Shown one piece after another: positions 42,781 through 51,974 of a DNA stretch of 64,000 nt. Positions within the stretch are counted from its first letter, which is position 1. The number at the start of each line of letters is the position of its first letter. A model generated the notes under the pieces. It saw only the letters and a list, made by a program, of their open reading frames with translations. It was not told the origin of the DNA and searched no databases. A program made the translations under genes and the position numbers. This stretch comes from Pseudomonas protegens (lineage in GTDB: Bacteria > Pseudomonadota > Gammaproteobacteria > Pseudomonadales > Pseudomonadaceae): the NCBI RefSeq assembly GCF_013407925.2, contig NZ_CP060201.1, positions 682,001 to 746,000 on the forward strand, read 5' to 3'.

Positions 42781-43809
42781 TCAAACCAGCGCGTGACACT
42801 CCACGCGCAGCCGTTGCTCGCTCAGCAAGCGCGACTCGATGCGCACCGGCAGGAAGGCTTCGATCACCCGGATGTTACTCTCCAGATGCTCGGTCATGCA
42901 CGGCGTGGTGAAGCTGCCGCCACCGGCCAGGGCCATGGGCAGCAGCAGTTGATCGGCCAGGTGCTCGGCCACCGCCGCGCCGGAATCCAACCAGTCCCGG
43001 GCCTGATCGATGGCGATGTCGGCGACCTTTTCCGCCCGCAGGCTGTTCTGGCCGAAACCACTGAACAGCTCAGTCAGGTGCTCGAAGGCGAACTCCAGCA
43101 ACAGCACATTGCCCGGGCCGTATTGTTCATCCAGCTGCACCGGGGTGAGGTGCTCGCGCGGCAGTTCCAGGCGATTGTGCACCCGACGCAACTCGCGCTC
43201 GGCCACATGCTCGGGCAGGCCCGCGCTCAGCGCCCAGGCCCGACTCCCCAGCAGTGCGCCACGCGCCTCAAGGTGCAGGGGCTGCAGCACCGACGGTTGA
43301 ACAAAGGCCTCCAACTCACCACCGCCGGCCGGGACGAAGCCGTGGCGCAGCAATTGCAGTTCCACCCGCCCGCCCATGCGCCGCAACAACGGCAACCAGG
43401 CCTGCTGGAGGAAATCCACCGGCGGCGCCAGGGGGTTGTGGGTGCCGCCGCTGATGCTCACGCGGCTGGGCTGCGGCGCGTGCATCAAGGCCGGCAGCAG
43501 GGTCTGCAGCACCAGGGTGCAACTGCCCGCGGTGCCGATGGCGAAGCGATAGTCGCCACCACGGATCGGCCCCGGCTCGAAGGTCAGGGCCAGGGAGCCG
43601 AGTTCGACTCCAGTGGTCTTGGCGCCACACACCTGGGCCGCCGCCTGCACCGCCGTCAGGTGCTGGCGCAGCAGCCCCGGGCGGCTGCGCCGGGCACGAA
43701 TATTATGGATACGCAGGGTCTTTCCGCTTAGCATCGACAGGCTCAAGGCGCTGCGCAGTACCTGGCCGCCGCCGATGGCGCCGTCCAGTTCGATTACATC
43801 CTGTTTCAT
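42781..43809 (-). CDS. rtcA: RNA 3'-terminal phosphate cyclase
   Basis: 342 residues. The N-terminal signature is IELDGAIGGGQVLRSALSLSMLSGK. Later come FEPGPIRGGDYRFAIGTAGSCTLVLQTLLPAL, the ligand loop HGFVPAGGGELEA, and AVAEHLADQLLLPMALAGGGSFTTP containing the His that is adenylylated in RtcA. It converts an RNA 3'-phosphate to a 2',3'-cyclic phosphate with ATP, the end that RtcB can ligate. It is the last clear repair gene of the rsr-rtcB operon and lies eight bases after the nucleotidyltransferase gene. Confidence 0.9.
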   Translation of the reverse strand: MKQDVIELDGAIGGGQVLRSALSLSMLSGKTLRIHNIRARRSRPGLLRQHLTAVQAAAQVCGAKTTGVELGSLALTFEPGPIRGGDYRFAIGTAGSCTLVLQTLLPALMHAPQPSRVSISGGTHNPLAPPVDFLQQAWLPLLRRMGGRVELQLLRHGFVPAGGGELEAFVQPSVLQPLHLEARGALLGSRAWALSAGLPEHVAERELRRVHNRLELPREHLTPVQLDEQYGPGNVLLLEFAFEHLTELFSGFGQNSLRAEKVADIAIDQARDWLDSGAAVAEHLADQLLLPMALAGGGSFTTPCMTEHLESNIRVIEAFLPVRIESRLLSEQRLRVECHALV

Positions 43810-43817
43810 CTCATTCC

Positions 43818-44606
43818 TCAGGCGTAGTGCCGGACGGTTTCCCGCAGGTAAGCGTCCAGCAACGCGTTGTCTTCATGGGTGCGCGCCAGCTTCGGCACCG
43901 GGCGCTCCAGCTCGGCGGCGATAAAGGCGTGCAGTGCCGGGCGTCGTGGCCCGTAGGCGGACTCCTCGGCGCTGCGTTTCAAGGCCAGCAGCTCGGCCAC
44001 CTCGTCCAGCAGTGGTTGATGCTCGACCGTGGTCAGCAGATCGGCAAAGGTCATCGGCGGTCGGCCGCGACCCTGGTCGATCCAGCGCACCGCCAGCAAC
44101 GGCCGCAGCACGTAGAAGTACTTCTTGAAACGCACGCTTTCGCCTTGCAGGTAACCGCGAAAGTTCTTCTTGGCCATCGACAGATAATGATTGCGCGCCG
44201 CCGGCGGGCTGTAGAACGCCTCTGCCAGCTCCCGCAGGCGCGCGGCGGCGGCCGGTTCGCTGCGATACACCAGGGGCGAGTCCAGCCATTCCAGCAGGGT
44301 CGGGTTGGACTTGCGCAACAGCCCGAGGGTCTTGCGCAGTTCCCAGCCGCTGATGTCCAGCTCGTCATCCAGGGGCCGCTCGATCACGTCGCGCCCGGCA
44401 TCCACCTGGATGAACCATTCGGGCTTTTCCACATAGACGAAACGCACGTCGTAATCACTGTCGGTGGAGGCAAAGCCCCAGGCCCGACTGCCGGATTCGC
44501 AGGCGTACAGCACCCGCACATTGCGCTCGCGCTCGATCCGCGCCAGCTCGGCCAATACCCGTTCGCGCATGGCGCTGCTCAGGGGATGGTGCTCCAGGTG
44601 TTCCAT
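43818..44606 (-). CDS. RlaP-type nucleotidyltransferase of RNA-repair operons
   Basis: 262 residues from MEHLEHH (AAGGAAAAAGGATC site). The polymerase-beta-type core is YACESGSRAWGFASTDSDYDVRFVYVE: a GSxxxG loop then D-x-D metal ligands. The KKNFRGYLQGESVRFKKYFYVLRPLLAVRW segment is typical of the RlaP family (formerly YcgL-like), which comparative genomics places with RtcB, RtcA and Rsr. It probably adds or edits nucleotides at broken RNA ends; this activity is inferred. The frame upstream to 44651 overlaps the previous gene and is not needed. Confidence 0.82.
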   Translation of the reverse strand: MEHLEHHPLSSAMRERVLAELARIERERNVRVLYACESGSRAWGFASTDSDYDVRFVYVEKPEWFIQVDAGRDVIERPLDDELDISGWELRKTLGLLRKSNPTLLEWLDSPLVYRSEPAAAARLRELAEAFYSPPAARNHYLSMAKKNFRGYLQGESVRFKKYFYVLRPLLAVRWIDQGRGRPPMTFADLLTTVEHQPLLDEVAELLALKRSAEESAYGPRRPALHAFIAAELERPVPKLARTHEDNALLDAYLRETVRHYA

Positions 44607-44622: not shown

Positions 44623-45267
44623 TCAATCGGTGGCGCTGGCGGCCAGCACACTCAGGGTCCGGCGCACGGGGTTCCACACCGTCAGGCACCAGACGCCCCA
44701 CCACTCCAGGCCTTCGTCGAAATAGTCACTCCAGGGCAGCAGGTGCGGGCCCATGTCCGGCGCCAGAAAGTCCAGTTCCAGGTTGCCTACCCAGTTGATG
44801 ACATGCGGCCCCTCGGCGGGGTCGAGCCCCAACACCTGCAACCAGTGGCCGAACGCCTGCCGGGCCTGCTCGATGCCGCCGGGGAACTGCGTCCCATACG
44901 GCGGGTCGTAAAACGCCTGGAACAAGGCCCACTCCTGCGGCTCCAAATTTTCGCAGACCAGCTGCCGGACCTGTTCTTGGCCGAGCGCCTCAGGCACCGC
45001 CCGCTCCTGCTCCCAGCGCATCGACGTCAGGCCGACGTCGGCATAGCGCGGGTCCTGGCGCAGTATTTCCCAGCGCTCGCGGCGCTCGGCCATGAGTTGC
45101 AGGTACAGGTGCTGCAAGCCCTGGCGATGCAGTGCTTGATCCACCTCAGCCTCGGCTTCGACCGCCAGCACCACAAAATCGAAGACGCAGTACACCTGCT
45201 TCAGTTGCTGGCGCAGCGCGCGGCAGTGTTCATCTTCCATCCGGGTCAACAGTGGCCGCGGTTGCAT
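44623..45267 (-). CDS. Uncharacterised protein of the RNA-repair operon
   Basis: 214 residues from the second ATG (45267). GGAGAG lies about eight bases upstream of it, within the codons after the first ATG (45282). No domain is recognised. Tryptophan-rich C-terminal text (WSDYFDEGLEWWGVWCLTVWNPVRRTL) and a GNLELDFLAPDMGPHLLPW block stand out, and there is no membrane helix or signal. It sits between the HEAT-repeat gene and the RlaP-type gene with 16-18 base gaps, so it should be made with them. It may be an adaptor or substrate-recognition part; this is inference only. Confidence 0.65.
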   Translation of the reverse strand: MQPRPLLTRMEDEHCRALRQQLKQVYCVFDFVVLAVEAEAEVDQALHRQGLQHLYLQLMAERRERWEILRQDPRYADVGLTSMRWEQERAVPEALGQEQVRQLVCENLEPQEWALFQAFYDPPYGTQFPGGIEQARQAFGHWLQVLGLDPAEGPHVINWVGNLELDFLAPDMGPHLLPWSDYFDEGLEWWGVWCLTVWNPVRRTLSVLAASATD

Positions 45268-45285
45268 AAAGGCGCTCTCCATTTT

Positions 45286-46629
45286 TCAAAGCAGGCGCTT
45301 GGCAGAACCTGCGGGCAATTCACCGGCTGCCTCCATCGCCTGCACACGCTGCAACATGGCTTCGCGCAGCGGCTTGGGGGTGACCGGATCGAACATCCCG
45401 TAGCGGCTATCGCACCAGCGCGCCAGAGTCTGGCGCCAATAGGCGGCCTCGCTGCCGCCCTGCCCCAGGCGCCACAGCAGGTATTCCAGCTGGCGCCAGC
45501 CCGGCTTGAGGGCCAGCAGGGCCCAGCGCCGCGCCTTGGGCAGGTCATGCCAGTGCTGATCCAAACGTTGCTCCAGGGCCTCGTCGAACACCGCCCAGGG
45601 TTGCTCGTGCAACAGTCCCAGGGCGCAGTTGAAGACCTTGTCCGAGGCGTCGTCCAGGGCCGCCAGTTGCTCGGCCATGCCACGTTCGCTCAAGGTCTGC
45701 AGGGCCAGCAGGCGCACACTCGGCGCCGGCGAGGCCAGGGCCTGTCGCACCATGGCGTCGGCCATGGGTTCCTGCAGCTCCTTGACCAGCCCCAACAGCC
45801 CCAGCCAAGCGCGCTTGTTCCGTGGTGCCGGCTGTTGCAACCGTTGCAGCAACACCTCGCGCGGGTCCAGCCCGTGACGGGGCGCGGCCCAATGGGCCAG
45901 GCAACGCAAGGCCCCCGAAGGGTCCAGCAAGGCCTGACTCAGATACTCGCGAGGATCGGCCAGCAACGGCAGCAGCAAGCGCAGCGCCTTGACCCGCACA
46001 CTGGCGCCGCAGCTGTGCATCACCTCTTCCAGCAGGGGCACGGCCTGTGCGGCCGGCAGCTCGGCGCAGGCATCCACCGCCATCTGCCGCACACTGACTT
46101 CGCTGTGGCGCAAAGCCCGGGCCAGCAGCGCCGTCCGATCCGGCGCCCCTTCGAGCAACAGCTCGAAGACAAAGCGCGCGGCCTTGCCACGGCAAGCGGC
46201 AAAAGCCGCTTCAACTTCTTCGCGTACCTGGGCCAGCTGCAGCACCGCACGCGCCCGTTCCAGGGTCGCGCCGTGGTCCGCGCGCTGTTTGCCGGCCAGG
46301 GCCAGCAGCGGCTTCAGACTCTGCAACAGCAGCTCGGCGCGCTCGGGTGCCAGATACCCCTCGATCGCCGCGGCAGCCTCCTGGCGTACCTGGGGCACCC
46401 AATCGTTGAGGCGCTCCAGCAAGGCCGCCAGGGCCTCGGCCGAAGGCTGTGCGGCCAGGCCGCGCACGGCGGCCTGACGAACGAAACCGTTGCCAAAGCG
46501 GCTCAGTTCCAGCCAGGCGCTGTGCCGGTCCAACTCCTCCATCACCTCCCGCACGCGGCGGGCTTCGTAGTCGCTCAGTTGGTACTGCCAGCCGGGCGGC
46601 GCCGCTATCAAGGCGTCCATGTCGTCCAT
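45286..46629 (-). CDS. HEAT-repeat protein of the RNA-repair operon
   Basis: 447 residues made largely of paired helices. Repeats such as NGFVRQAAVRGLAAQPSAEALAALLERL, DWVPQVRQEAAAAIEGYL, SEVSVRQMAVDACAELPAAQAVPLLEEVM and ASVRVKALRLLLPLLADP have the HEAT pattern. Such solenoids bind proteins or nucleic acids. AAGGGG precedes the ATG, and rtcB ends four bases upstream, so translation is likely coupled to rtcB. It probably acts as a scaffold for the repair enzymes or recognises RNA; neither is shown by sequence. Confidence 0.75.
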   Translation of the reverse strand: MDDMDALIAAPPGWQYQLSDYEARRVREVMEELDRHSAWLELSRFGNGFVRQAAVRGLAAQPSAEALAALLERLNDWVPQVRQEAAAAIEGYLAPERAELLLQSLKPLLALAGKQRADHGATLERARAVLQLAQVREEVEAAFAACRGKAARFVFELLLEGAPDRTALLARALRHSEVSVRQMAVDACAELPAAQAVPLLEEVMHSCGASVRVKALRLLLPLLADPREYLSQALLDPSGALRCLAHWAAPRHGLDPREVLLQRLQQPAPRNKRAWLGLLGLVKELQEPMADAMVRQALASPAPSVRLLALQTLSERGMAEQLAALDDASDKVFNCALGLLHEQPWAVFDEALEQRLDQHWHDLPKARRWALLALKPGWRQLEYLLWRLGQGGSEAAYWRQTLARWCDSRYGMFDPVTPKPLREAMLQRVQAMEAAGELPAGSAKRLL

Positions 46630-46633
46630 TGTT

Positions 46634-47860
46634 CTACCCCTTAACGCACACCACCTGACGCAGGGTGTGCACCACTTCCACCAGCTCGCGCTGGGCGTGC
46701 ATCACTTGGTCGATGTCCTTGTAGGCCATCGGGATTTCGTCGATCACCGCTTCGTCCTTACGGCACTCCACATGGGCGGTCGCGCGGATCTGGTCGGCCA
46801 GGGTGAAGGTGTTCTTGGCCTTGGTGCGGCTCATGGTACGCCCCGCGCCGTGGCTGCAGGAGCAGAACGCCTCCTCGTTACCCAGCCCGCGAACGATGAA
46901 GCTATTGGCCCCCATCGACCCCGGGATGATCCCCAGCTCGCCCTTCTTCGCCGACACCGCGCCCTTGCGGGTCACCAGCACCTCTTCACCGAAGTGGCGC
47001 TCCTTCTGCACGTAGTTGTGGTGACAGTTGACGGCCTCCAGCGCCACTTCGAAGGGCTTGCTGATCACCTGGCGGGTGGCCTGGATCACCAGTTGCATCA
47101 TCAGCTCGCGGTTCTGCCGGGCGAAATCCTGGGCCCAGGCCACGGCTTCCACATAGTCGTCGAAGTGTTGGCTGCCTTCCTCGAAGTAGGCCAGGTCGCG
47201 GTCCGGCAGGTTGGCGATATGTTGGCGCATATCGGCCTGGGCCAGGTGAATGAACAGGTTGCCGATGGCGTTACCGACGCCGCGGGAACCGCTGTGGAGC
47301 ATGAACCAGACCCGGTTGGCCTCATCCAGGCAGACCTCGATGAAGTGGTTACCGCCGCCGAGGGTTCCCAGGTGCTTGCGGTTGTTGCTGTTGGCCAGGG
47401 CCGGGTACTTATCGGTGATCGCCTTGAAGCGCGGATGCAACGCCGCCCACGCCTGGTCGGCCTGATTCGGTACGTCACCCCAGGCGCCCTTATCGCGACC
47501 GCTACGGGGCGAAGTACGACCGTGAGGCACCGCCGCCTCGATGGCGCTACGCAATCCGGCCAGGTTATCCGGCAGGTCCGAGGCGGTCAGCGAGGTACGG
47601 GCGGCGATCATTCCGCAACCGATATCCACCCCGACCGCCGCCGGGATGATCGCGCCCACCGTGGGGATCACGCTACCGATGGTCGATCCCTTACCCAGGT
47701 GCACGTCGGGCATCACCGCCAGGTGCTTGAAGATGAACGGCATCTTCGCGGTGTTCATCAATTGCTGGCGCGCTTCGTTTTCCACGGGCACGCCCTGGGT
47801 CCACATCTTGATCGGCTTGCCGTTGGCGACTTCCAGCAGTTGGTAGGTCTTGTGTTCCAT
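46634..47860 (-). CDS. rtcB: RNA-splicing/repair ligase RtcB
   Basis: 408 residues from MEHKTYQLLEVANG. Manganese ligands are in AAVGVDIGCGMIA, TLGGGNHFIEV and LEAVNCHHNYV. The GTP-guanylated His lies in CSCSHGAGRTMSR. The AMPDVHLGKGSTIGSVI start and HSGSRGVGNAIG complete the pattern. It joins RNA 3'-phosphate or 2',3'-cyclic phosphate ends to 5'-OH ends using GTP. The longer frame to 48118 runs through the Y RNA array and is not coding. Its place directly after rsr and the Y RNAs matches the Salmonella rsr-yrl-rtcBA operon. Confidence 0.92.
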   Translation of the reverse strand: MEHKTYQLLEVANGKPIKMWTQGVPVENEARQQLMNTAKMPFIFKHLAVMPDVHLGKGSTIGSVIPTVGAIIPAAVGVDIGCGMIAARTSLTASDLPDNLAGLRSAIEAAVPHGRTSPRSGRDKGAWGDVPNQADQAWAALHPRFKAITDKYPALANSNNRKHLGTLGGGNHFIEVCLDEANRVWFMLHSGSRGVGNAIGNLFIHLAQADMRQHIANLPDRDLAYFEEGSQHFDDYVEAVAWAQDFARQNRELMMQLVIQATRQVISKPFEVALEAVNCHHNYVQKERHFGEEVLVTRKGAVSAKKGELGIIPGSMGANSFIVRGLGNEEAFCSCSHGAGRTMSRTKAKNTFTLADQIRATAHVECRKDEAVIDEIPMAYKDIDQVMHAQRELVEVVHTLRQVVCVKG

Positions 47861-47950
47861 GTCGTTGACTCTTTTTCCTGTGGCCGCTGATTCGGCCTTG
47901 TTCAATAGGGTGTGCAGGAGCCGGGGCGCAGCAGACGGTCTCAGGGGCCT

Positions 47951-47974
47951 CTTCGCCGGCAAGCCAGCTCCTAC
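47951..47974. repeat. Single REP element between the Y RNA array and rtcB
   Basis: CTTCGCCGGCAAGCCAGCTC followed by CTAC. It lies 90 bases upstream of rtcB in the transcribed region, where it may form a stabilising hairpin. Confidence 0.8.
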
Positions 47975-47995
47975 GGCGTTGCGGTGTTCGGTACA

Positions 47996-48116
47996 GACGG
48001 CGACCAGTGGAGGTGGAACATGCAGCGCGCTCTGCCTCTGAGCTAGCACCTTGCGGTGCGCGGGACTCGAACCCGCGACCACGCTGTCCTGTAGTTCCAC
48101 CGGCATTCGCCGGGTC
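47996..48116 (-). ncRNA. Y RNA module 5, with permuted tRNA-like domain
   Basis: About 121 bases. Ro-type element CGGCGAATGCC lies at the 5' side, with GGTCGCCG at the 3' side; the basal stem is shorter than in the other modules. The upper helix GGTGGAAC (48094-48101) pairs with GTTCCACC (48012-48019). The tRNA-like part reads in the order anticodon-stem 3' strand CAGCG (48082-48086), T-arm GCGGGTTCGAGTCCCGC (48060-48076), closed acceptor hairpin GCACC-GCAA-GGTGC (48046-48059), D-arm GCTCAGAGGCAGAGC (48029-48043), then CGCTG (48023-48027). This is a circular permutation of tRNA with the acceptor end closed by a tetraloop. Confidence 0.75.
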
Positions 48117-48139
48117 AATCGGTGCAGGCCTGGCCTGCG

Positions 48140-48247
48140 GGCAGCGACAAGGGAACGGGCACATTTGCTCTACCGACTGAGCTACAGCCTGGCGGCTGGC
48201 GGGGCTCGAACCCGCGACAAAATGTAGTACCCGTGGCATTCGCTGCC
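48140..48247 (-). ncRNA. Y RNA module 4, with permuted tRNA-like domain
   Basis: About 108 bases, the clearest copy. The basal stem is GGCAGCG/CGCTGCC (48241-48247 with 48140-48146), with GAATGCC and CTTGTC inside. The upper helix ACGGG pairs with CCCGT (48230-48234 with 48155-48159). The anticodon-like stem ACATTT/AAATGT pairs 48220-48225 with 48161-48166. The T-arm GCGGGTTCGAGCCCCGC is at 48199-48215. The acceptor hairpin CAGCC-GCCA-GGCTG is at 48185-48198, its loop reading like a discriminator base plus CCA. The D-arm GCTCAGTCGGTAGAGC is at 48167-48182. T and D arms and the acceptor hairpin are directly contiguous, as in the YrlA tRNA-like module. Confidence 0.82.
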
Positions 48248-48273
48248 ATCCCGCCGAGGCGGGGGGAAAAGAT

Positions 48274-48403
48274 GCGACGACAAGGAGTCGATGAAACGGT
48301 GCACTCGCGTTCTGACCATTGAACCACGGCGCCGTTTTCCAGCACCGGCGGGAATCGAACCCGCATCTCGAACCTTGGATGTAGTTCCATCCGCATTCGT
48401 CGC
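48274..48403 (-). ncRNA. Y RNA module 3, with permuted tRNA-like domain
   Basis: About 130 bases. The basal stem GCGACG/CGTCGC pairs 48398-48403 with 48274-48279, with GAATGCGG and CTTGTC inside. The upper helix GATGGAAC pairs with GTTTCATC (one G-U). The T-arm GCGGGTTCGATTCCCGC is at 48348-48364. The acceptor-like hairpin CGGTGC/GCGCCG spans 48327-48347 with a nine-base loop. The D-arm GTTCAATGGTCAGAAC is at 48309-48324. The anticodon-like helix is less regular than in modules 4 and 5. All arms differ in sequence from module 4 while keeping complementarity. Confidence 0.75.
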
Positions 48404-48421
48404 AAAAACTGCAAAAAAGGT

Positions 48422-48497
48422 GGCACGACAAAAGGAGTGACTGATCGCCGGATTCGAACCGGCTTAACCAATATGTACAGCCACTGGCATTCGTGCC
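48422..48497 (-). ncRNA. Y RNA module 2, T-arm only
   Basis: About 76 bases. The basal stem GGCACG/CGTGCC pairs 48492-48497 with 48422-48427, with GAATGCC and TTTTGTC inside. The upper helix AGTGGCTG pairs with CAGTCACT (one G-U). The apical part contains a T-arm, GCCGGTTCGAATCCGGC (48447-48463), but no D-arm and no acceptor hairpin. A run of six T follows the basal stem by two bases, so this module could also act as a partial terminator. Confidence 0.7.
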
Positions 48498-48503
48498 GTC
48501 ACC

Positions 48504-48561
48504 GGCCCTGACAAGAGTTGCTGAGACGCCTTTGGATGTAGTCACAGCGGCATTCAGGGCC
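48504..48561 (-). ncRNA. Y RNA module 1, minimal Ro-stem form
   Basis: About 58 bases. The basal stem GGCCCTG/CAGGGCC pairs 48555-48561 with 48504-48510, with GAATGCC and CTTGTC inside. The upper helix GCTGTGAC pairs with GTCTCAGC (one U-U mismatch). The loop TACATCCAAAGGC keeps the TACAT found after the upper helix in modules 2-4. No tRNA-like arms are present. It begins 66 bases after the rsr stop. Confidence 0.65.
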
Positions 48562-48568
48562 AATGAGC

Positions 48569-48604
48569 AAAAAATCTGTGGTGTGCGCCGGCTGGCCGGC
48601 GCAC
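48569..48604 (-). terminator. Hairpin and T run between rsr and the Y RNA array
   Basis: GTGCGCCGGC and GCCGGCGCAC form a perfect ten-base inverted repeat (48583-48604) reading the same way on both strands. On the minus strand it is followed eight bases later by six T (48569-48574). It may cause partial termination or mark a processing point separating rsr mRNA from the RNAs downstream. Confidence 0.5.
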
Positions 48605-48626
48605 GGTTTATCTCATGTTCCAGCGA

Positions 48627-50177
48627 TCAGAGCGGCATCGCCTCGATCGCCTTGACCCAGTGCTGCGCACCGTAGTTGCCCGCGGTGAACTGCTCGATCA
48701 CATCGAACACCGCGTCACTGAAGCCGCCGACGTTGAGGATGTCCTCGCGGTCTGGCGCCTGGGTCGTGGCGCCGGGTTGCATATCGATGCACACCAGCTT
48801 CGCCTGCGGGTTGATGGCCCGGATCCGCTCCCACTGGCGCATGGTTTCCGTGGCGCCGTGGCGCCGCGCATCGATCCACGACTCGTTATCCGAGACCAGG
48901 ATCAGGGTGTCCACGCGGCTCTTGGCGTTGGCCAGCTGTGCCAGGGGCGCCGAGCAGTTGGTCCCGCCTCCGCCGATGTTCGCCAGCTTCTGCGCATTGC
49001 TCATCACGCTGTCCCGCGGGTTGAGGTGAATGTTCACCACCCCCCGCTCGAACGGCATGACCCGCGCCGCCGGCTGCTTGCGCAACACCGCGGCCGCCAC
49101 CAGTGCCGCCACATCGATGCAACGCACCGCGGTGGTGGCGCCCTGGCGATAGCCGGTGACCGGGCTGTGCATCGAGCCCGAGACATCCGGGCACACCACC
49201 ACGTGGCCCGCCAGCGCCGGGACGTTGGCCAGGGACAGCTCCAGGGCATCCTGCAGCGCCTCGCGGACCAACTGCGGCACGTCCTCGCCAGCCATGCGGT
49301 AGGCCGCCAGCAACTGGTACGGATAGACCCGGGCCTTGGCCACCTCCCCCGCATCCGCCAACCGCGCCGCCACGTACTCGCTGCAACCCGGCACCTGGAA
49401 CGCGCCGTGGCGGGCCAGGGTGTTGAGGTTCATGCGCAGCCCCTGCCAACCCATGTTGCGGGCCTGCGCCGCCCATTGTTCGGCGCTCAGCGTCTCGTTG
49501 CCGAGCAACTGGAACGGCACCTGCGGCACCAGGGTTGTCGCCCCGCTGCGAAACGCCAGCAGCTCGCGGGTCAGCTCAGGCAGCGCCTGCACATCCACCG
49601 GCTTGCCGATCACCCAGGCGAAGAAGGCTTCGCGCCAGGCTTCACTTGGCTTGGGGTGAACCATCTTCAGCACGTCCCCCAGGGACGGCTTGGTGCCGAT
49701 CGAGGCCTGCAACAGCTGACGCTCACTGGCGCTGTTCAACCAGTTCTGCACCAGGCGCTTGGGCTGCGACCCCAGGGATTTGCGCCCGGTCACGCCGCTG
49801 CGCAGGATCTGCACGAAGTTGCGCAGCATCTTGCCGTTGTCCACCACCTGGGCGAACAGCTCCGGCACCAGGGCCGAGCGTTGTGCGGTCAGCGCCGCCA
49901 GCAGCAGCGCCGGCATGTCCTTCATATGGCCTTGCTGCCGAGCGTAACGGGCGGCCTGGGCGACGAAGCGGCTGTCCAGCTGGCTCACCAGTTGCAGCAC
50001 CGCGTCCAGTTGACCTTCAGGCGAGGTGTAGAAGGTCGAGTTCAGGCAACCGGTGACCGCCAGCTGGGCCAGGCGATGCTTGGCGTTGTAGGCATAAGCC
50101 CCGGCCTTGGAAGCGTTCAGGGTGGTGCTCACTGGCGCTTTTGCCTGTTGGGTGTTGAACAGCTGGAAGTTGGCCAT
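48627..50177 (-). CDS. rsr: Rsr, Ro60-like TROVE-domain protein
   Basis: 516 residues. The N-terminal two-thirds is the HEAT-like TROVE ring (LDAVLQLVSQLDSRFVAQAARYARQQGHMKDMPALLLAAL, FVQILRSGVTGRKSLGSQPKRLVQNWL). The C-terminal third is a von Willebrand A fold with the MIDAS motif CPDVSGSMHS (about residue 320) and GGGGTNCSAPL. Ro60 rings bind misfolded or broken RNA through the hole and Y RNA on the outside. It is the first gene of the sigma54-driven operon, 32 bases from the predicted transcript start. The five Y RNA-like modules immediately downstream are its probable ligands. Confidence 0.92.
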   Translation of the reverse strand: MANFQLFNTQQAKAPVSTTLNASKAGAYAYNAKHRLAQLAVTGCLNSTFYTSPEGQLDAVLQLVSQLDSRFVAQAARYARQQGHMKDMPALLLAALTAQRSALVPELFAQVVDNGKMLRNFVQILRSGVTGRKSLGSQPKRLVQNWLNSASERQLLQASIGTKPSLGDVLKMVHPKPSEAWREAFFAWVIGKPVDVQALPELTRELLAFRSGATTLVPQVPFQLLGNETLSAEQWAAQARNMGWQGLRMNLNTLARHGAFQVPGCSEYVAARLADAGEVAKARVYPYQLLAAYRMAGEDVPQLVREALQDALELSLANVPALAGHVVVCPDVSGSMHSPVTGYRQGATTAVRCIDVAALVAAAVLRKQPAARVMPFERGVVNIHLNPRDSVMSNAQKLANIGGGGTNCSAPLAQLANAKSRVDTLILVSDNESWIDARRHGATETMRQWERIRAINPQAKLVCIDMQPGATTQAPDREDILNVGGFSDAVFDVIEQFTAGNYGAQHWVKAIEAMPL

Positions 50178-50219: not shown

Positions 50220-50235
50220 TGCAGCCGCTGTGCCA
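50220..50235 (-). promoter_or_regulatory. Sigma54 (-24/-12) promoter of the rsr-rtc operon
   Basis: On the minus strand TGGCAC-AGCGGC-TGCA: GG of the -24 box and GC of the -12 box are exactly ten bases apart, as sigma54 requires. The predicted start site falls near 50209, giving a 5' leader of about 32 bases before rsr. Upstream (50240-50380) the DNA is very A+T-rich, suited to a bendable activator/IHF region toward rtcR. Confidence 0.82.

Positions 50236-50381: not shown

Positions 50382-51968
<1,587 letters not shown>

Positions 51969-51974
<6 letters not shown>

Follow-up and report, generated by a model that had tools for sequence, protein, structure and literature searches.

A conserved array of Y RNA-type units, in five ordered classes, between rsr and rtcB in Pseudomonas

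As at the locus reported here, the vertebrate Y RNAs (hY1, hY3, hY4 and hY5) are a set of small RNAs that share one Ro60 base and differ in their loops; they are not known to carry a tRNA-like domain. Several Y RNAs per species are already known in bacteria; Chen (2014) reportedly identified one or more tRNA-like Y RNAs in each species and may have shown Pseudomonas arrays. The bacterial Y RNAs are not homologous to those of vertebrates according to the available part of PMC4726728. The same excerpt describes the RYPER of Deinococcus radiodurans (Y RNA, Rsr and PNPase), which shares with the present locus a Ro60-family protein, an RNA bound through its lower stem and a model of gating and tethering, here predicted; it differs in having been described outside an rtcBA array, and the Rsr proteins are distant. 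For bacteria at large, the accessible portions of PMC4726728 and PMC8394870 state that the Y RNA, bound by Rsr at its lower stem, gates the protein and tethers PNPase, and those of PMC7790460 that tRNA fragments switch on RtcR. In Salmonella, both yrlB and yrlA are present, as recorded in the part of PMC9879122 available and as the sequence-only reading of the DNA studied here had correctly stated. The YrlA family (Rfam RF02553) and the Salmonella rsr-yrlBA-rtcBA operon have in common with this locus the position between rsr and rtcB, control by RtcR and sigma54 (predicted here), and a basal stem with AAUG and UUGU; YrlA further shares with three of the units described below (Y3 to Y5) a permuted tRNA-like domain without an anticodon arm.

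The window analysed here, a stretch of 64,000 nucleotides from Pseudomonas protegens, contains the following genes and sites around the array.

50382..51974, plus strand: rtcR, divergent sigma54 activator (Pfam RtcR, Sigma54_activat)
50220..50235, minus strand: sigma54-type promoter site TGGCACAGCGGCTGCA, 5' of rsr (pattern with 1 mismatch; chance matches are common in the window)
48627..50177, minus strand: rsr, Ro60-family protein (vWA_Ro60 79.3 bits, above cut-off; TROVE 24.7 against 23)
48582..48605, minus strand: perfect hairpin in the gap between rsr and Y1, with no T run on the minus strand
46634..47860, minus strand: rtcB, RNA ligase (Pfam RtcB 444.8 bits)
45286..46629, minus strand: HEAT-repeat protein (Pfam HEAT_2)
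44623..45282, minus strand: 219-aa protein between the HEAT-repeat gene and RlaP (no match in Pfam or NCBIfam)
43818..44606, minus strand: RlaP, RNA-repair nucleotidyltransferase family (Pfam RlaP 323.6 bits)
42781..43809, minus strand: rtcA, RNA 3'-phosphate cyclase (Pfam RTC)

The operon thus runs from rsr through a five-unit array to rtcB, the HEAT-repeat protein, the 219-aa protein, RlaP and rtcA, and its divergent rtcR, sigma54-type site, rtcB and rtcA identify it by sequence as an RtcR-controlled RNA repair operon. The encoded Rsr is 98% identical to that of P. protegens FD6 and finds its closest solved structure in D. radiodurans Rsr (2NVO, E 7e-27); against the NCBI Rsr equivalog model it scores 89.8 bits, far under the cut-off of 900. 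Of 80 named rsr loci, 78 have enough upstream sequence, and 69 of these carry a sigma54-type pattern, similar to that of the window, 52-122 nt 5' of the gene. On the array strand, a consensus scan of positions 47800-48700 returned no internal promoter and no terminator; a sigma54-like match at 48425-48410 was discarded because the sequence of L067 differs there. Hairpins resembling that at 48582-48605 are present in some relatives (L067, L042, L064), with none in L058.

Direct reading of the minus strand delimited five units between rsr and rtcB.

48504..48561, minus strand: Y1, 58 nt; basal stem GGCCCTG/CAGGGCC; hairpin, no tRNA-like domain
48422..48497, minus strand: Y2, 76 nt; basal stem GGCACG/CGTGCC; T-arm only
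48273..48404, minus strand: Y3, 132 nt; basal stem TGCGACG/CGTCGCA; T-arm, acceptor hairpin and D-arm
48140..48247, minus strand: Y4, 108 nt; basal stem GGCAGCG/CGCTGCC; full tRNA-like domain
47996..48113, minus strand: Y5, 118 nt; basal stem CGGCG/CGCCG; full tRNA-like domain

In all five the 5' basal strand is followed by AATG and the upper helix by TACA, and the closing strand is preceded by TTGT in Y1-Y4 and by TGGT in Y5. A unit rule that was drawn up only once the units were already known (a stem of 5 bp or more, 3 or more of them G-C, AATG, 35-155 nt, TGT or GGT, and the complement of the stem) recovered five units at the locus, against none in 1941 and one in 59 of 2000 dinucleotide shuffles. 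The antisense strand gave no unit, and the 162 tiles of the remaining window gave none in 160 and one in 2. Chance inverted repeats can hence be ruled out, given that the 2000 shuffles never contained more than one unit.

The units carry tRNA-like elements to a graded extent. Y1 is a bare hairpin unit without a YrlA-type tRNA-like domain, and its length is held at 57-59 nt across 46 Pseudomonas units (7-nt arms counted); Y2 possesses a T-arm; and Y3-Y5, which have no anticodon arm, combine in permuted order a T-arm (loop UUCGA), an acceptor hairpin and a D-arm. Scores under RF02553 follow the same gradient, with Y5 (80.3 bits) and Y4 (74.2 bits) as the only units to pass the cut-off of 69, Y3 (54.1 bits, E 2.9e-10) and Y2 (17.5 bits, E 2.05) below it, and Y1 absent from the matches. 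No Rfam family matched Y1 or Y2 at E<=1. The possibility that Y3-Y5 are copies of particular host tRNAs was rejected: the best of 25 distinct own-genome sequences, taken from the 30 loci surrounding the top 30 of 70 matches, scores 25-31 out of a possible 46-49, and no single parent tRNA therefore stands out.

Comparison across species revealed compensatory change in all five units, here counted on structures derived from the same sequences or from their consensus, which biases the counts in favour of those structures. Cells with compensatory change amounted to 98 for Y1 (shuffled mean 28.2; slid controls 6-24), 40 for Y2, taking the basal and upper helix only (9.8; 0-10), 47 for Y3 (11.3; 0-4), 20 for Y4 (4.8; 0-9) and 22 for Y5 (8.3; 0-6), those of Y5 lying entirely within the acceptor helix. 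Pairs changed on both sides were not in excess over shuffles for Y1 (reached by 119 of 500) or Y5 (153 of 500), and neither were further pair types for Y2 (482 of 500), Y3 (305 of 500) or Y5 (194 of 500). In energy folding, Y1, Y2 and Y4 took the expected shape and Y5 showed the T-arm and acceptor hairpin, with z-scores of -3.0, -1.9, -2.5, -3.9 and -3.8 for Y1 to Y5; the lowest-energy fold of Y3 from the window differs from the family shape. Across loci AATG was present in 170 of 172 units, a count that is partly by construction since units were anchored on AATG, AGTG or AATA, and TTGT in 158 of 172. In 65 loci, 235 of 256 5' basal strands had the 3' strand of their own unit as the strongest pairing partner, the mean being -9.4 kcal/mol against -4.4; unlike stems of any kind would behave in this way, and the figure is therefore no proof of selection.

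The conserved basal stem with AAUG and UUGU is that of bacterial Y RNAs in the broad sense, and the locus is a real, conserved Y RNA-type array. What the sequence-only reading had observed in these letters is upheld: five stem-bounded units with distinct stems, as read directly and by the rule; the stems themselves, that of Y5 being CGGCG/CGCCG in full; the shared motifs AATG and TACA in five units and TTGT in four; and a structure kept while its sequence changes. Its identification of Y RNA-like units beside rsr is backed by the compensatory changes and by the YrlA covariance model it had proposed as a check, which places Y5 and Y4 above the cut-off and Y3 below. Its further suggestion, that Rsr could draw on several RNA partners in exchange, is a hypothesis.

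The 80 named rsr loci are the best of 116, and 76 of them could be read from rsr to rtcB, comprising 45 with an Rsr more than 74% identical, all from Pseudomonas, and 31 others. The Pseudomonas loci hold 2-5 units each in one fixed order, the Y1-Y2 pair being repeated in two. Sixteen carry all five classes, 13 carry Y1-Y2-Y4, seven Y1-Y2-Y5 and three Y1-Y2; the rarer types are Y1-Y2-Y3-Y4 (two), Y1-Y2-Y1-Y2-Y5 (two), Y1-Y2-Y3-Y5 (one) and Y2-Y3-Y4-Y5 (one). Y2 is accordingly found in 45 of these loci and Y1 in 44, followed by Y4 (32), Y5 (27) and Y3 (20), and the fewest changes required on a quick Rsr tree are 0 for Y2, 1 for Y1, 2 for Y3, 3 for Y5 and 6 for Y4, the absence of all full tRNA-like units taking two. 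Assigned units number 2-7 both over all 76 loci and in the 31 others, where a class name denotes the nearest profile only and assignment is loose. Among the latter, L086 (Undibacterium) and L087 (a Burkholderiales MAG) present seven assigned units in a gap of ~1.6 kb, including a tandem run of four Y1-like ones, and the Chitinimonas/Andreprevotia loci L078, L082 and L094 present Y2 followed by Y3. In L066 (from genome G001), a unit of ~113 nt with the stem CCATG/CATGG occupies the Y1 slot at the start of the gap between rsr and rtcB.

Arrays with several units are the rule at Pseudomonas rsr loci. Five units in tandem, which had been thought unusual, recur as the same five in 16 of the 45 Pseudomonas loci, and the accompanying description of graded copies does not hold either, as Y1-Y5 are separate classes, each with counterparts in other species. 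Recent tandem duplication of one gene was likewise discarded for Pseudomonas: when class profiles are started from each unit of the window, most loci prove to have a single unit for each class, arranged in the same order.

The association of the units with rsr was assessed in 398 genomes of the genus, with rsr in 40 and RtcR in 92, those 40 included. Because rsr loci supplied the sequences for the Y1 and Y2 models, with many of the rsr-bearing genomes contributing rows, the matches in those genomes are partly by construction: Y2 (E<=0.01) was detected in 40 of 40 genomes with rsr and in 0 of 358 without it, and Y1 (at least 62 bits) in 39 of 40, with no match of that strength and two weak ones (27.6 and 23.9 bits) in the genomes without rsr. 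The exception to the constancy of Y1 with rsr is G001, which has no Y1. RF02553 matched 38 of the 40 rsr-bearing genomes at E<=1e-4, the remaining two, G016 and G337, showing no match above 28.5 bits even at E<=10; the Y1-Y2 pair of G016 obtains 25-26 bits with this model. Both genomes (L133 and L126) retain Rsr, next to an array of Y1, Y2 and a 5' remnant of Y5 like that of L046 and L044. Full tRNA mimics thus come and go, being absent from 2 of the 40 genomes, and Y1 and Y2, which adjoin rsr as bacterial Y RNAs broadly do, co-occur tightly with it: the units without a full tRNA-like domain are the ones tied to rsr. Being nearly always found with Rsr, they are likely its core RNA partners. 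In one further case (G108:C1:2335605-2337153) the rsr match is in two pieces, one with an internal stop, and Y1 and Y2 still adjoin it.

We consider it rather probable that the array supplies Rsr with adaptors sharing a common handle, Y1 and Y2 acting as core partners and Y3-Y5 as optional versions bearing a tRNA elbow, all on one transcript controlled by RtcR and sigma54. The five units are predicted to be transcribed together from that promoter and to be cut apart afterwards; by analogy with Salmonella RtcR, the trigger would be tRNA damage. Rsr would likely bind every unit through the common base of stem, AAUG and UUGU, and the differing tops would decide the role of each Rsr particle. Y1 and Y2, as standing partners, would probably gate or stabilise Rsr without a full tRNA mimic, and Y3-Y5 would serve as optional tethers whose tRNA elbow might dock PNPase or tRNA-handling enzymes, as for YrlA. 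The unit-specific basal stems could reduce mispairing between neighbours and allow separate folding on one transcript.

Two genomes, G382 and G394, possess rtcR, rtcB and rtcA, with rsr not found, and carry a Y5-like unit before rtcB (85.7 and 93.7 bits, respectively). In G394 an open frame between rtcR and the Y unit matches a permuted papain-like amidase, and a like frame is present in G382.

L183, 4528-4645: Y5-like unit of an rsr-less genome, AGCG replacing AAUG
L184, 5272-5391: Y5-like unit of an rsr-less genome, AGCG replacing AAUG

At the AAUG site, where these two units have AGCG, rows from genomes with rsr have AATG in 22 of 23 and AATA in one. The occurrence of AGCG without rsr fits AAUG mattering only alongside Rsr; the two units are nearly alike, and may stem from one event and represent a relic. 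YrlA matches were obtained in 17 of the 358 genomes without rsr, and 15 of these were looked at (G330 and G344 left out). A wide group of Y RNAs without rsr was discarded, a real Y unit being recognised among the 15 in G382 and G394. In G009, G120, G130, G318 and G332 the match corresponds to tRNA-like pairs in the RtcR operon, in G041, G105, G240, G256, G326 and G368 it spans neighbouring ordinary tRNA genes, and in G211 and G262 the matching stretch is without tRNA, rtcB or rsr. Two such tRNA-like sequences lie head to tail in 6 of the 52 Pseudomonas genomes with RtcR and without rsr.

L185, 3578-3722: tRNA-like pair
L189, 2905-3044: tRNA-like pair
L192, 2305-2447: tRNA-like pair
L193, 2556-2696: tRNA-like pair
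L197, 527-668: tRNA-like pair
L205, 2020-2159: tRNA-like pair

The pairs are situated between rtcR and an open frame preceding rtcB, which in L189, the one tested, is a Band_7 protein. In the four of the 12 sequences that were folded the anticodon loop measures 3-4 nt, two of the z-scores being weak (-1.56 and -0.53), and inspection of the ends by eye revealed no CCA. They resemble tRNA mimics lacking an anticodon and would be a second route for bringing a tRNA elbow into the RtcR operon. The YrlA model also reaches 33-48 bits across ordinary tRNA neighbours in L186, L187, L188, L191, L243, L245 and L246. The 3' half of one tRNA followed by the 5' half of the next matches the arrangement seen in the tRNA-like domain of Y RNAs, a hint that these domains may derive from tandem tRNA junctions.

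These rsr-less operons bear on an alternative in which the tRNA-like units, instead of being adaptors for Rsr, would act as decoys for anticodon nucleases or as regulators of RtcR or RtcB. The lack of an anticodon arm in Y3-Y5 agrees with such a role, as do the retention of one tRNA-like unit in two operons without rsr, the paired sequences with their short anticodon loops, and the proposal by Hughes et al., in the available portion of PMC7790460, that YrlA may act as a competitive inhibitor of the nuclease. Nevertheless, two of the 40 rsr-bearing genomes have no full unit at all, the Y5 of the rsr-less operons may be a relic, and Y1 and Y2 would be left unexplained; we regard this alternative as unlikely.

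The assignment of Y1 and Y2 as core partners has a converse, in which only Y3-Y5 would be working Y RNAs and Y1 and Y2 worn former tRNA mimics kept through inertia. Y2 lacks a full tRNA-like domain throughout: several relatives have a T-arm together with an acceptor hairpin (a minihelix), L054 and L101 have neither of these, and a D-arm occurs in none. It shrinks along the genus from minihelix to T-arm only to neither, and its T-loop drifts among relatives. Y2 may on this evidence be a fading tRNA mimic, which counts against the core-partner assignment, and wear of this kind is visible in the Y5 of L044, L046 and L055. Y1 and Y2 are, however, the most constant of all units, their stems co-vary, and the Y1 loop CTACAT is almost invariant in 37 rows, two of them from outside Pseudomonas, leaving inertia a quite improbable account. 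Least probable is an action in cis, whereby Rsr on the array of its own mRNA would control decay or translation of rsr and rtcB: the array does lie within the operon, behind a hairpin that follows rsr and with no promoter found on its strand by the consensus scan, but such control would require neither a complete mimic of the tRNA elbow nor a separate stem for each unit, and the accessible part of PMC8394870 describes Salmonella YrlA as an RNA of its own.

The adaptor interpretation can be taken a step further, in a form that we put forward tentatively: the obligate Rsr partners in Pseudomonas would be a pair of Y RNAs that lack a full tRNA mimic, one being only ~58 nt long, within an ordered adaptor kit of interchangeable tops and zip-code stems under one RNA-damage promoter, the tRNA mimics being optional. 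The locus departs from Salmonella in its five ordered classes, where the latter has two RNAs (the comparison being with YrlA and not with yrlB itself), and from YrlA in that Y1 and Y2 are without a full tRNA-like domain and far under the family cut-off, and in the 58 nt of Y1 against 90-150 nt for YrlA in the available text of PMC8394870. The titles and abstract openings of the papers surveyed mention no ordered Y RNA classes and no tRNA-less Y RNAs as the constant ones; what appears to be new is the fixed set of five classes, together with the existence and constancy of members that lack a full tRNA mimic. Counts of Y RNAs made with the YrlA model alone overlook the most constant members. Nature has, moreover, separated the parts of the Rsr/Y RNA system, leaving Rsr without a full mimic in some species and a tRNA-like unit without Rsr in two, so that what the Rsr handle and the tRNA mimic each do becomes testable unit by unit. 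The question on which these units bear is the role of bacterial Rsr and its Y RNAs in RNA repair operons.
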